Source of the DNA: Myxococcaceae bacterium | GTDB taxonomy: Bacteria; Myxococcota; Myxococcia; Myxococcales; Myxococcaceae | Direction: 5' to 3' | NCBI GenBank assembly: GCA_003818285.1 | Contig: RPRB01000016.1 | Coordinates: 1 to 50,989 of the forward strand | Length of the DNA stretch: 50,989 nucleotides | Translations under genes and position numbers: made by a program | The notes under the pieces: model-generated | The model's input: only the letters and a program-made list of their open reading frames with translations | What the model was told of the DNA's origin: nothing | Database searches by the model: none | Shown: positions 41,603 to 50,989 of the stretch, one piece after another | Layout of the letters: each line of letters starts with the position of its first letter | How positions within the stretch are numbered: the first letter of the stretch is position 1

Positions 41603-43453
41603 ATGGCTCGCGAGGCCCCGTCAGGAGAGGTGTGTCGTCCGGCGTCCGCCGACGGACGCACGGCGAGCGCCACGCCCGATGACGGGGTGGGCGGGCCCGT
41701 CCCGCGCCTCCCCCGGGGGGCCACCCTCGGACGCTACGTGGTGCTGGACTGCCTGGGCAGCGGCGGCATGGGGGTTGTGTACCGCGCGCACGACTTCGCC
41801 CTGGACCGGCGCGTCTCCCTGAAGCTCCTCCGCCCCGCGGGGAAGGACCCGGAGGCGCGGCGCGAGCGGCTGGTCTCCGAGGCCCAGGCGCTCGCCCGGG
41901 TGTCCCATCCCAACGTGCTCGCCGTCCACGACGTGGGGACCTGGGAGAACGAGGTCTACCTCGCCCTCGAGCACGTGGAGGGCGAAACGCTGCGGAGCTG
42001 GCTCGACCGCGCTCCCCGGAGCCCCGCGGAGATCCGCGGCATGTTCCTCCAGGCCGCGCGCGGGCTGCAGGCCATCCATGACGCGGGTCTGGTGCACCGG
42101 GACGTCAAGCCCGAGAACCTCCTGCTGGGGCGGGATGGCCGGCTCCGCGTGGCGGACCTGGGGCTGGCCATCACCACCGGAAGCAGCGTCCCTGCTCCGG
42201 CGCACGAGACGCTGCGGCCCGGCACGCCGGGGTACATGCCTCTCGAGCAGCACCGGGGCGAGCCGCTCGATGCGCGCGCGGACCAGTTCAGCCTCGCGGT
42301 GGCCATCCACGAGGCGCTCCTCGGGTGCCGTCCGTACGGGAGCCGCGGGACGTCGCGCGAAGCGCTCGAGGCGAGGCTGGCGCGCGGCCCTGCGGTCGAG
42401 GTTCCGCGCTCCCCGGCCGTCCCCCCGCGCCTCCGTCGTGCGCTCACCGCATCGCTCAGCCCGGATCGCGCCCGGAGGCCGGCCTCGCTTTCCCCGCTCA
42501 TCGACGCGCTCGCCGCTCCCGGGGTGCACGCCTCGAGCACGCTCGGTGGATCGCTGGCCGTCGCCGCGTCTGCGGTCCTGCTCGTCGTGGCAATGGCCCG
42601 GGGGAGCGCCACGCCGGTGGCCCGCGCCGAGGCCGCCCCGTGGCTGCCTCCTGCCTACGAATTCCAGATCGAGACCGTGGAGCCGGCCGAACCGGTGGTC
42701 GCGCAGGCCAGCGCAGTGGCGCTCCCGGTCGGCGGACCGCTCATCCGGGAGAGCTGGACGTCCGCGCGGACCGCGGCCGCGAGCCAGGCCGGCCCGCTCG
42801 CCGCTCCGTCCGCTCCGGGCGTGCAGAGGCCGGAGGTGCTGGTCATCGGTCACCCGCCACCGGGGACGACGGCAGCGTCCGGCGAGGGACCGGCGCTGGA
42901 TCTCGACAAGCTCGCCGAGCTGCGTGGACTCCTCCAGGCCCTCTACCGCGCCCTGAGCGAGCCGCGGGAGGGGACGGCCGGGGGGCCGCTCCTGGCGCTC
43001 TCCCCGAACCCGGCCGCGGGAGGGGTCGGCCCCTCCGCGCCCGTCGGCACGTCCGCCTTGCCTCTTCAGGTCGCGTCCGCGGCCACTCCGTACGGGTCGG
43101 GCCCCGACTTCGTGGACCCCACGGGCGAGACCATCGCCGCCATCGAGCGCCGCCTCGAGCAGCAGATCCGGCACAACCGGAGCCCCCCGGAGATCGCCCA
43201 GACCCGCTTCGCGCTCGCCCAGGCGATCTGGAACTCGAGCGACGCCGAGCAGGCGCAGATCCGCGCCCTCAGCCTGGCCCGCCAGAGCAAGGCCGAGCTC
43301 GAGTCGGTGGCAGGTCTGGACGCGAACGTCTCCTTGCTCGAGCTGCGCGCCCAGGTGACCGACTGGATCTCCCTGCGAGAGGGGCCGATCGGCAAGCCAC
43401 GCGGCAACCTGACCGTCGAGACCAGGAGGGACGGGCTGGGGCTGCCCCCTTGA
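41603..43453 (+). CDS. Hanks-type serine/threonine protein kinase, membrane-anchored
   Basis: This 616-residue protein has a complete kinase core at about residues 40-310. The glycine loop is LGSGGMGVVYRA, the catalytic Lys is in VSLKLLRPAG, the helix C Glu in LVSEAQALARV, and the catalytic loop HRDVKPENLLL lies near 165. The metal-binding motif is ADLGLA (DLG rather than DFG, common in bacteria), and the activation-segment end is PGTPGYMPLEQ. A membrane helix (GGSLAVAASAVLLVVAMARG, about 314-333) separates the kinase from a Pro/Ala-rich extracytoplasmic part. The C-terminal region (about 510-600) is helical (TIAAIERRLEQQIRHNRSPP and on). GGAG lies 6 nt before the ATG. The FHA/sigma-54 activator gene begins 34 bases downstream, so a phosphorylation link is likely. 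Confidence 0.87.
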   Translation: MAREAPSGEVCRPASADGRTASATPDDGVGGPVPRLPRGATLGRYVVLDCLGSGGMGVVYRAHDFALDRRVSLKLLRPAGKDPEARRERLVSEAQALARVSHPNVLAVHDVGTWENEVYLALEHVEGETLRSWLDRAPRSPAEIRGMFLQAARGLQAIHDAGLVHRDVKPENLLLGRDGRLRVADLGLAITTGSSVPAPAHETLRPGTPGYMPLEQHRGEPLDARADQFSLAVAIHEALLGCRPYGSRGTSREALEARLARGPAVEVPRSPAVPPRLRRALTASLSPDRARRPASLSPLIDALAAPGVHASSTLGGSLAVAASAVLLVVAMARGSATPVARAEAAPWLPPAYEFQIETVEPAEPVVAQASAVALPVGGPLIRESWTSARTAAASQAGPLAAPSAPGVQRPEVLVIGHPPPGTTAASGEGPALDLDKLAELRGLLQALYRALSEPREGTAGGPLLALSPNPAAGGVGPSAPVGTSALPLQVASAATPYGSGPDFVDPTGETIAAIERRLEQQIRHNRSPPEIAQTRFALAQAIWNSSDAEQAQIRALSLARQSKAELESVAGLDANVSLLELRAQVTDWISLREGPIGKPRGNLTVETRRDGLGLPP

Positions 43454-43486: not shown

Positions 43487-44863
43487 GTGTCCCGCTCCAT
43501 CGTCACCAGGTCCGAGACGGATGGCCGGCCGTCGTCCCGGCCCGCGCGCACCAGCCAGCTGGTGATCGCGCTCGCCTGTGACCGGCCCCTCGAGCCGCCG
43601 CGCGCGATCGAGCTGAGCGGCACCGGAGAGGTGTGGCTGGGCCGCGCGCCGCCCGAGGCGCCCGCCGGTGTCGTCCGGCTGAGCTTCCCGGACGACCGGA
43701 TGTCCGCCCTCCACGCGCGCCTGCGGCGGGTCCTCGGAAGGTGGGTCATCGAGGATGCAGGGAGCAAGAACGGGCTCCGCGTCCAGGGAACGCCTCAGCG
43801 CCGCGCGGTGCTCAACCCGGGCGACGCCATCGAGTGCGGGCAGACCTTCTTCGTCTTCGACGAGCACGGTGCCGAGGAGCCGGTCCCCGCGCTCCCGGCC
43901 GGCGCGGTCGAGCTTGGCTGCCAGAGCTTCCACCCCGACCTGCTCGCCGGATGGTCGGCGCTGGCCCGGGTGGCGCCCACCCGGGTGCCGGTGATGCTCC
44001 AGGGCGAGACGGGCACCGGGAAGGAGCTCGCCGCGCGCGCTCTCCACGCCTGGTCCGGGCGCACCGGCCCGTTCGTGGCGGTGAACTGCGGCGCGCTCCC
44101 CGAGCAGCTGGCGGAGAGCGAGCTGTTCGGTGTGCGGCGCGGCGCGTTCACCGGTGCCGTCGAGGACCGCCCCGGGCTGGTGCGGGTCTCGAGCGGAGGA
44201 ACGCTCCTTCTCGACGAGGTGGGAGAGCTGCCGGCAATCCTCCAGGTGAAGTTGCTCCGGGTGCTCCAGGAGAACGAGGTCCAGCCGGTCGGCGCGGCGC
44301 AGCCCGTCCGCGTGGACCTCCGCGTCGTCACCGCCACGCACCGAGACCTGTCCGCGCTGGTGGAGGAGGAGATCTTCCGGAGCGATCTCTTCGCCCGGCT
44401 CACCGGGCTCGAGGTGGAGCTTCCGCCCCTCCGGGACCGGCGGGCCGATCTCGGGCTGCTCATCCCCACGCTGCTCCGCCGCGCCGGTGCTCCGGCCGGA
44501 GTGCGCTTCTCCCGGGAGGCAGCCCGGGCCCTGTTCCGCTGGAGCTGGCCGCACAACGTCCGCGAGCTGGAGAAGGCGCTGGCCCTGGCGGTGGCGCTGG
44601 CCGGCGAGGGACGCATCGAGCTCGCTCATCTGCCCGAGCCGGTGCGCACCGCGCCCGAGGCACGGCCCGATCCGATGGCCGGCCGCACTGTCCGCCCGCT
44701 CAGCGAGGCGGACGTCTCGCGCCGGACCGAGCTCATCGAGCTTCTGCGGGCCCACCACGGCAACGTGAGCGAGGTGGCGCGGCAGTTGGGCGTGGCCCGG
44801 ATGCAGATCCAGCGCTGGTGCCGCCGCTTCCACCTGGACCCCGCGAGCTTCCGCGCCGCTTGA
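43487..44863 (+). CDS. FHA-domain sigma-54-dependent transcriptional activator
   Basis: This 458-residue protein has an N-terminal FHA domain (about 40-130) with the phosphothreonine-binding pattern GRAPPEAP, SALHARLRR and DAGSKNGLRV. A sigma-54 activator AAA domain (about 150-380) follows: Walker A GETGTGKELAAR, the sigma-54 contact loop GAFTGA intact in RRGAFTGAVEDRPG, and Walker B GTLLLDEVGELP. Arg-finger region FARLTGLEVELPPLRDRRAD also fits. The C-terminal Fis-type helix-turn-helix is NVSEVARQLGVARMQIQRW. There is no response-regulator receiver, so control is probably through FHA binding of a phosphorylated partner such as the adjacent kinase. The GTG at 43487 starts the frame. The target promoter is unknown, but the sequence boxes at 44933-44994 lie just downstream. 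Confidence 0.9.
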   Translation: MSRSIVTRSETDGRPSSRPARTSQLVIALACDRPLEPPRAIELSGTGEVWLGRAPPEAPAGVVRLSFPDDRMSALHARLRRVLGRWVIEDAGSKNGLRVQGTPQRRAVLNPGDAIECGQTFFVFDEHGAEEPVPALPAGAVELGCQSFHPDLLAGWSALARVAPTRVPVMLQGETGTGKELAARALHAWSGRTGPFVAVNCGALPEQLAESELFGVRRGAFTGAVEDRPGLVRVSSGGTLLLDEVGELPAILQVKLLRVLQENEVQPVGAAQPVRVDLRVVTATHRDLSALVEEEIFRSDLFARLTGLEVELPPLRDRRADLGLLIPTLLRRAGAPAGVRFSREAARALFRWSWPHNVRELEKALALAVALAGEGRIELAHLPEPVRTAPEARPDPMAGRTVRPLSEADVSRRTELIELLRAHHGNVSEVARQLGVARMQIQRWCRRFHLDPASFRAA

Positions 44864-44932: not shown

Positions 44933-44995
44933 GGTGCAACACCGGGGTGCAACCCCAGGGTGCAACACCGGGGTGGGGTGCAACGTGTTGCACCC
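44933..44995. promoter_or_regulatory. Array of GGTGCAAC boxes ending in a perfect palindrome
   Basis: GGTGCAAC occurs at 44933-44940, 44946-44953, 44959-44966 and 44977-44984. The first three have exact 13-base spacing and the next is 18 bases on. The last is followed two bases later by its inverse GTTGCACC (44987-44994), giving a perfect inverted repeat GGGTGCAAC-GT-GTTGCACCC at 44976-44995. This is the signature of a cooperatively bound protein operator. It lies between converging genes and 100 bases before a strong terminator. Confidence 0.75.
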
Positions 44996-45011
44996 GCGGC
45001 TGCTGGTGCCC

Positions 45012-45024
45012 TTGTCCCAGACAA
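45012..45024. promoter_or_regulatory. Short perfect inverted repeat TTGTC-CCA-GACAA
   Basis: TTGTC (45012-45016) and GACAA (45020-45024) are perfect inverse copies with a 3-base centre. It sits 17 bases after the GGTGCAAC palindrome and is AT-rich for this genome. It may be a second operator or part of an RNA stem. Confidence 0.4.
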
Positions 45025-45103
45025 ATCGCCGCTCGTCGCCCGGCATGGCGACTGCAATGGCCGGAGCGCGAGGTCGAGGCGGCCTGCTGTCCTGGGGCCA
45101 CGG

Positions 45104-45152
45104 GGCGCCGTGGGTACACTCTCCCCTCCCCACGGCGCCTCGTTTTTTTTTT
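45104..45152 (+). terminator. Strong intrinsic (Rho-independent) terminator
   Basis: GGCGCCGTGGG (45104-45114) pairs perfectly, 11 base pairs, with CCCACGGCGCC (45129-45139) across a 14-base loop. TCG and a run of ten T (45143-45152) follow on the plus strand. It is by far the most canonical terminator in the window. It could end the kinase/activator transcript, or a separate short RNA starting near the boxes at 44933-44995. The T-run overlaps the stop codon of the leftward TPM-domain gene. Confidence 0.88.
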
Positions 45153-45939
45153 AGTAGCTCTCGCTCGAACCGCCCCCGCCGCCTTCGCCGCCGCCTCCGC
45201 CGGAGAAGCCACTTCCGCCGTCTCCGCCGCCGCCTCCACCTCCACCCCAGCCTCCGCCTCCCCACCCTCCACCGATGAAGGGCGGCCCGCCCCAGTACGT
45301 GCGGCGGCGAGGGTGCCGGCTGGCACGGAGCAGGAGCATCACCACCACGAAGAGGACGAAGCCCCAGAAGCAGAGGTCGAACCAGTGCGGCAGCACCACC
45401 GGAGCCTGGGGAGCCGCCGCCGGACCCGGCCCGGGCCGCCGCCGCGCGGTGGTGCCGCTGCCCGAGAGCGCCTCGGCGATGCCGTCGATGCCGGAGAGGA
45501 TGGCGTCGTGCACCCGGTTCTCGCGCATCAGGGGAGCGATGCGCCGGCGGATGATGTCGTTGGACTGGAGGTCGGTCAGGTCACCGCCCACACCCTTGCC
45601 GGTCTCGATCCGGATGCGGCGCTCGCCGGTGGCGATGATCAGCACCACCCCGTTGTCCTTGCCCTTCTGTCCGGGACGCCAGGTCTGGATGAGCTGGTAG
45701 CCGACGTCCTCGATGGGCTCGCCCTGCAGCGAGGCCGTGACCAGGACGAAGATCTGGTTGCTGGTCTTCCGCTCGTAGTCGCCGAGCCGGCTGTCGAGGT
45801 CGGCAAGCTCGGCCGTGCTGAGCACGCTGGCGGTGTCGGTGACGTAGTCGGTCTGCTTCGGGACGTTGAAGGCCCGTGCAGAACCGGTGACGAGGAGGAG
45901 CAGGGTCGCGCAGAGCGGGCCCCAGGCCCGCCTCGGCAT
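45151..45939 (-). CDS. TPM-domain (YgcG-family) membrane protein
   Basis: This 262-residue protein has a signal peptide (WGPLCATLLLLVTGSARAF) and a TPM domain (about 28-165). Motifs include TDYVTDTASVLSTAELADLD, GQKGKDNGVVLIIATGERRIRI and GKGVGGDLTDLQSNDII, all typical of TPM proteins anchored to membranes. A membrane helix follows (WFDLCFWGFVLFVVVMLLL, about 195-213). The C-terminus is a Gly/Trp/Ser-rich tail (GGGWGGGGWGGGGGGGG) ending SSESY, which resembles a membrane or wall-exposed low-complexity region. Its ATG overlaps the LemA stop codon (TGATG), and LemA/TPM pairs are a recurrent arrangement. Such pairs are implicated in envelope stress or protein quality control. Start is secure from the overlap. 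Confidence 0.88.
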   Translation of the reverse strand: MPRRAWGPLCATLLLLVTGSARAFNVPKQTDYVTDTASVLSTAELADLDSRLGDYERKTSNQIFVLVTASLQGEPIEDVGYQLIQTWRPGQKGKDNGVVLIIATGERRIRIETGKGVGGDLTDLQSNDIIRRRIAPLMRENRVHDAILSGIDGIAEALSGSGTTARRRPGPGPAAAPQAPVVLPHWFDLCFWGFVLFVVVMLLLRASRHPRRRTYWGGPPFIGGGWGGGGWGGGGGGGGDGGSGFSGGGGGEGGGGGSSESY

Positions 45940-50746: not shown

Positions 50747-50989
50747 ATGCGGTTGCGCCTGGTGATCCTCGTCGCGCTCGGGCTGGCAGGCGGATGTAAC
50801 GGCCCCTCGGGGAACGGCCCCGATCGAGGCGGGTCTACCCGCGTGAACGACGGTGGGGCGACCGACGGCGGTGTTCCGGACGGTGGCCTGACCGATGGGG
50901 GCGCGGACGCCGGTGGAGCGCCGGACGGCGGAGCCGACGACGGCGGGCAGGATGGCGGTGCTCCGGATGCCGGCGCGATCGATGGGGGC
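50747..50989 (+). CDS. DGG-linker lipoprotein, partial at right edge
   Basis: The frame encodes 81 residues from ATG 50747 to the window end. The signal peptide MRLRLVILVALGLAGGC gives a lipidation site at Cys 17. Nearly everything after that is an Asp/Gly linker with DGG, DAGG and PDGG repeats (GGATDGGVPDGGLTDGGAD). It resembles the linker of the GH26-type lipoprotein at 866. The functional domain lies beyond the window, so the protein's role cannot be stated. Confidence 0.78.
   Translation, partial: MRLRLVILVALGLAGGCNGPSGNGPDRGGSTRVNDGGATDGGVPDGGLTDGGADAGGAPDGGADDGGQDGGAPDAGAIDGG

Follow-up and report, generated by a model that had tools for sequence, protein, structure and literature searches.

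Gene organization of the locus

The window analyzed here is a stretch of 50,989 nucleotides from a Myxococcaceae bacterium. On its forward strand, a kinase-activator pair opens with a gene for a Ser/Thr protein kinase (positions 41603–43453; Pfam Pkinase, 2e-37) that carries the motif HRDVKPEN. The second gene of the pair (43487–44863, forward strand) encodes a protein composed of an FHA domain (Pfam FHA, 1e-8), a sigma54-activation AAA+ domain (Sigma54_activat, 6e-58), and a Fis-type helix-turn-helix (HTH_8, 6e-5). The combination of an AAA+ sigma54-interaction domain with a DNA-binding HTH, as assigned by Pfam, identifies this protein as a bacterial enhancer-binding protein (EBP), and its recognition helix reads VARMQIQRW. 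Myxobacteria encode many FHA-type sigma54 activators, most of which have no known target. The unit ends at a convergent gene that lies outside it, on the reverse strand, and encodes a TPM-domain protein (45151–45939; TPM_phosphatase, 9e-35). The stop codon of this gene (45151–45153) overlaps the T run of the terminator described below, and a LemA gene is likewise downstream and convergent.

The congener G001 (L035, Myxococcaceae MAG Chersky_276) shares this gene order and has an EBP that is 87% identical to that of the window. A kinase ORF is found directly 5' of the EBP gene in G001 and also in G018, G016, G065, G066, G060, and G061. Two paralogous FHA-EBPs in the genome to which the window belongs (G000; C40:14348-15673 and C151:6697-8013) are 48% and 46% identical, respectively, and both are without TGCAAC boxes and without a sigma54 promoter scoring at least 9 directly downstream.

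A box array and dyad downstream of the activator gene

Three exact copies of GGTGCAAC follow the EBP gene on the forward strand (44933–44940, 44946–44953, and 44959–44966) and constitute putative enhancer half-sites. They are followed by a putative enhancer dyad, GGGTGCAAC-GT-GTTGCACCC (44976–44995), which contains two further exact boxes, one at 44977 on the forward strand and one at 44987 on the reverse strand. A preliminary description of this DNA had reported boxes at 44933, 44946, 44959, and 44977, the first three in 13-nt steps, and this array is real and exact at every position. The "perfect 20-base palindrome" of the same description is in fact two 9-bp arms flanking an asymmetric GT center (9+2+9). 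Within an RNA, the array and dyad would be able to pair.

The box GGTGCAAC occurs six times in the window against an expectation of 1.05, a count that none of 100 shuffled sequences reached, and under a first-order model the expectation for a four-box cluster in the 5.77-Mb genome is ~3e-9. The genome search that the preliminary description had proposed returned no second cluster, as no other direct GTGCAAC...TGCAAC pair within 30 nt was found anywhere in the 5.77 Mb; the box cluster and the dyad are single-copy. The other enhancer-type pair in the genome is one isolated GTGCAAC...GTTGCA on contig C238, which is at control level. Across the family, the exact dyad is present in 2 of 96 genomes, both of this genus and both at this locus. 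Autoregulation of the kinase operon through the boxes was considered and rejected, as the part of the window upstream of 41603 is free of box pairs.

A conserved block, CTGCTGGTGCCCTTGTCCCAG (45000–45020, forward strand), separates the dyad from the promoter described below; all 21 of its 21 positions match the congener, and it may bind another protein. The inverted repeat TTGTC-CCA-GACAA (45012–45024) noted in the preliminary description is present in the window but is not conserved as a repeat, because the right arm in the congener is GGCAA.

A predicted sigma54 promoter

The boxes were initially thought to lie where no promoter operator is expected, between two convergent genes. This premise does not hold because a predicted sigma54 (-24/-12) promoter, CGGCATGGCGACTGCA (45041–45056, forward strand), is located within the interval. 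The site has an exact GG-N10-GC core and matches the -24/-12 consensus at 9/12 positions, while the aligned site in the congener, CGGCACGACGACTGCA, matches at 10/12. The spacing from dyad to promoter is 47 nt in both species. Measured to the -12 element, the center of the dyad is ~70 bp away and the boxes are up to ~120 bp away, which places these repeated and dyad elements within the ~60–150 bp upstream interval by which EBP sites are recognized.

By chance, a score of at least 9/12 is expected roughly every 5 kb on a given strand, and the 51-kb window has 20 such sites when its two strands are combined. Because a 9/12 match is common by itself, the argument for this promoter rests on its position and on comparison with relatives. 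As a positive control, the same score gives 10–11/12 for the pxr promoters of the family. No minus-strand sigma54 promoter scoring at least 9 was found in the gap, and a search for a sigma70 promoter as an alternative also found none. The top-scoring sigma54-like site in the window is located at 50747 on the reverse strand (TGGCACGAAGCCTGCG, 10/12).

The terminator and the predicted RNA

The interval closes with an intrinsic terminator (45100–45152, forward strand) that has a 15-bp stem, a C/U-rich loop of 14 nt, and a T10 run. The G+C-rich stem spans 45100–45143 and is followed by the U run (T10 at 45143–45152), with a folding energy of -31.8 kcal/mol for 45090–45160 and a shuffle z-score of -3.4. 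The earlier observation that this is the only canonical intrinsic terminator with a T10 run in the window was borne out, as it is the sole stem-plus-T-run of this kind; a simple scan missed it because the loop is longer than 8 nt.

Placing the start of transcription 12 nt after the -12 element, at ~45067, and the end at the last T of the run, at 45152, gives a predicted non-coding RNA of ~85 nt (45067–45152, forward strand). The counterpart in the congener would be ~88 nt. The predicted start differs from that suggested in the preliminary description, which had placed it between 44930 and 45000. No ORF with a common start and stop was found in the predicted RNA of the window and the congener, and a short peptide was rejected as the product, as the only candidate was a GTG-started frame of 14–15 codons within the hairpin, and the two species do not have its stop in common. 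The consensus fold of the predicted RNA combines a hairpin, whose loop is C/U-rich, with a short 5' part that is conserved; since the genus is sampled by two species, this fold is without covariation support. The loop sequence CUCUCCCCU would perhaps allow the RNA to target G-rich ribosome-binding sites.

A known RNA family was ruled out, as the window has no match in Rfam 15 at or above the gathering score. Across the family, a copy of the RNA was found only in the congener. A weak match in G012 (L097, E 2.5e-4) was discarded because it seems to fall within coding sequence and probably reflects a chance match of G+C-rich DNA.

Conservation between the two species

The EBP genes of the two species are identical at 136 of 271 fourfold-degenerate sites (50%), which provides a baseline for the downstream interval. 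Relative to this baseline, the dyad (20/20), the promoter (14/16), the 5' part of the predicted RNA (45067–45099; 27/33), and the terminator stem-loop (43/44) are conserved, with identities of 88–100% for the dyad, promoter, and hairpin. The preliminary description had called for such a comparison, and the boxes and stem are indeed retained, with the tandem array reduced in the congener to two boxes alongside the dyad. Conservation is lacking in the spacer at 45025–45040 and in the stretch that separates the EBP stop codon from the first box. Conservation of the stem-loop and T run is expected of any terminator, and the kinase-EBP mRNA could use this terminator alone.

Homologous activators, their boxes, and their targets

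The downstream regions of related activators were compared using the 27 close EBP homologues with enough downstream sequence. A sigma54 promoter scoring at least 10/12 is found within 250 nt 3' of the gene in 14 of these 27. The corresponding background frequency is 1.5% (65 of 4222 segments), and remote EBPs have such a promoter in 3 of 19 cases, which differs from the close homologues with a Fisher p of 0.016. Pairs of TGCAAC boxes lie 3' of 7/10 homologues with the helix ARMQ[IV]QRW and of 0/17 others, a distribution with a hypergeometric probability of ~1.4e-4 by our own arithmetic, which ignores shared ancestry. Homologues with other helices carry other boxes in the same slot: GGTGTACC for SRAQVHRLF, CCTGCATC/GATGCAGG for TRAQVHRW, and CGTAAC for ARMQVHRW. 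Changes in the FHA-EBP helix are matched by changes in the box, which would amount to a natural specificity code. In L056, L058, L059, L061, and L098, the GGTGTACC, GATGCA, or CGTAAC boxes are no more than 150 nt beyond the EBP stop codon.

The genes found at these positions in relatives are small. In G018, G016, and G065, the EBP stop codon is followed by TGCAAC boxes, a sigma54 promoter, and a gene for a protein of 70–78 residues that has a single hydrophobic helix. The small-protein gene of G066 (L118 1382-1725, contig C8) and the EBP gene are on different contigs; upstream of the small-protein gene are four TGCAAC boxes, spaced in 9-nt steps, and the sigma54 promoter AGGCACGCCCCCTGCT. Because this unlinked target carries the boxes, the boxes go with the promoter and target, as expected of an enhancer. 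The number, spacing, and pairing geometry of the boxes differ among relatives, with the TGCAAC core retained. This small membrane protein is found in five relatives (E<1e-20) and is absent from G000 and G001, where the best E values are 0.67 and 0.29, respectively.

A related protein of 49–56 residues with the motif REWGFP follows the promoter in G051, G123, and G124. None of six small proteins tested has a Pfam match. A family of one-helix proteins of 49–57 residues, most with an N-terminal REWGFP and none with a Pfam match, is encoded behind sigma54 promoters 3' of the EBP gene in L045, L064, L068, L070, and L055; this family is possibly a feedback partner of the kinase. A second gene for a small hydrophobic protein in G018 (L121 1409-1700, contig C127) has a 10/12 sigma54 site upstream and no TGCAAC boxes, and is probably a paralogous target of another EBP.

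Proposed mechanism and alternative readings

Judging from the sequence, the interval is probably a self-contained sigma54 unit that gives rise to an EBP-linked small RNA of the Pxr/CrcZ kind under the control of the kinase and the FHA-EBP, a reading to which we assign a probability of roughly 0.68. In the proposed mechanism, the Ser/Thr kinase presumably switches on the FHA-EBP (43487–44863), for which the dyad and the tandem TGCAAC half-sites would together serve as the enhancer to be bound upstream. The bound EBP would then loop to RNA polymerase-sigma54 at 45041–45056 and open the promoter, and transcription would run from ~45067 to the terminator, yielding a transcript of ~85 nt. The product is predicted to be non-coding and structured, with a loop rich in C and U. 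In relatives, this arrangement of enhancer and promoter appears to drive the small one-helix membrane protein, and in this genus the RNA would take its place. The two proposals of the preliminary description, a protein-binding array and a regulated small RNA, are both supported by the sequence and are combined here as parts of one unit, with its premise about the gap and its RNA start replaced.

The main rival is a relict promoter. According to this explanation, the membrane-protein gene has been lost, the terminated transcript is without function, and the terminator merely ends the EBP mRNA and shields the TPM-LemA genes. The absence here of the small protein that is the target in relatives is consistent with such a loss, as is the window promoter, which at 9/12 is weaker than those of the congener (10/12) and the relatives. 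However, decay would be expected of a dead promoter, and the dyad, the promoter, and the 5' part of the RNA are retained far above the 50% identity of fourfold sites. In addition, the loop is kept at 13/14 positions even though loop sequence is unimportant for termination. This retention argument draws on two genomes only, and we consider the relict explanation unlikely but the strongest of the alternatives.

A second alternative is that the EBP is not the protein that binds the boxes and that another regulator does so, such as one repressing the promoter or the EBP operon. Genuine direct repeats accompanied by a dyad would suit many regulators, but the box sequence tracks the HTH type of the adjoining EBP and the boxes are at enhancer distance from sigma54 promoters, even when target and EBP gene are unlinked, making a different binder improbable. 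Less probable still is that the kinase-EBP mRNA carries the array and hairpins as RNA elements of its 3' UTR, with no separate promoter. Read-through from the operon would cover the array and dyad, which could pair in the RNA, but conservation of pairing is not what is seen among relatives, where the geometry, number, and spacing of the boxes vary while the TGCAAC core stays, and the G066 boxes are upstream of a gene, apart from the EBP gene. Finally, a chromosome-organizing site or mobile-element remnant, suggested earlier on account of repeats and a dyad between convergent genes, is unsupported and highly improbable, because the array is single-copy and tied to the activator family, the exact dyad is limited to 2/96 family genomes, and neither a transposase nor terminal repeats were noted.

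Returning to the small-RNA unit, a more specific proposal is that the RNA is the sole direct target of the kinase-FHA-EBP pair, that the protein output was swapped for an RNA while the switch was kept, and that helix and enhancer sequence, which occur together at a single locus, change in step across the family as a readable code. We regard the chances of this extended proposal as about even. If the unit is as described, the locus is an example of a protein-to-RNA target swap. More broadly, both the target and the binding site can be read from the sequence that immediately follows the activator gene, which makes many FHA-EBPs testable at once.

Comparison with known systems

In Myxococcus, nla19/pxrR is followed on its 3' side by pxr, a gene whose transcription appears to start from a sigma54 promoter (PMC5568312, PMC5684412). 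Similar to Pxr, which is a small RNA of ~100 nt, the predicted RNA would be encoded directly 3' of a sigma54-activator gene and would have its own sigma54 promoter, enhancer, and stem-loop terminator. Pxr has three stem-loops, and the predicted RNA of the window shares no sequence similarity with it beyond short matches at chance level. A Pxr probe allowing up to 3 mismatches had no match in G000 or G001, whereas 59/96 family genomes matched. Identity with Pxr was rejected, as there is no SL1/SL2 homology and the neighboring EBP has an FHA domain and no receiver domain match. The activators also differ, in that a histidine kinase and its NtrC-like response regulator control Pxr, while the window encodes an FHA-EBP with a Ser/Thr kinase.

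The promoter architecture resembles that of the Nla28-type sigma54 promoters of Myxococcus xanthus, in which 8-bp tandem half-sites lie upstream of a -24/-12 promoter (PMC7910581). The Nla28 half-site is CT(C/G)CG(C/G)AG, compared with GGTGCAAC here, and Nla28 regulates many genes, whereas the window EBP has one recognizable site cluster in the genome. Parallels are also found in the FHA-EBP small-protein targets in L041, L042, L076, L045, and L082, which have the same EBP family and the same enhancer-promoter slot. There, the promoter drives a one-helix protein of 49–78 residues without a Pfam match, while the window has a non-coding stretch and a terminator.

A small RNA gene directly after an EBP gene is also seen in the CbrAB-CrcZ system of the Pseudomonadaceae. 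In Pseudomonas, crcZ is positioned 3' of cbrB, and CbrB activates the sigmaN-dependent crcZ promoter via repeated subsites (PMC8871633). CrcZ differs in that it titrates Crc/Hfq, and the lineage, the RNA, and the signaling domains are also different. The known EBP-linked small RNA genes, pxr and crcZ, share the layout of this locus, with a predicted RNA here that is, by its sequence, not a homologue of Pxr. If the proposed reading is correct, the locus adds to PxrR-Pxr and CbrB-CrcZ an EBP-linked small RNA that is under a Ser/Thr kinase and an FHA partner.
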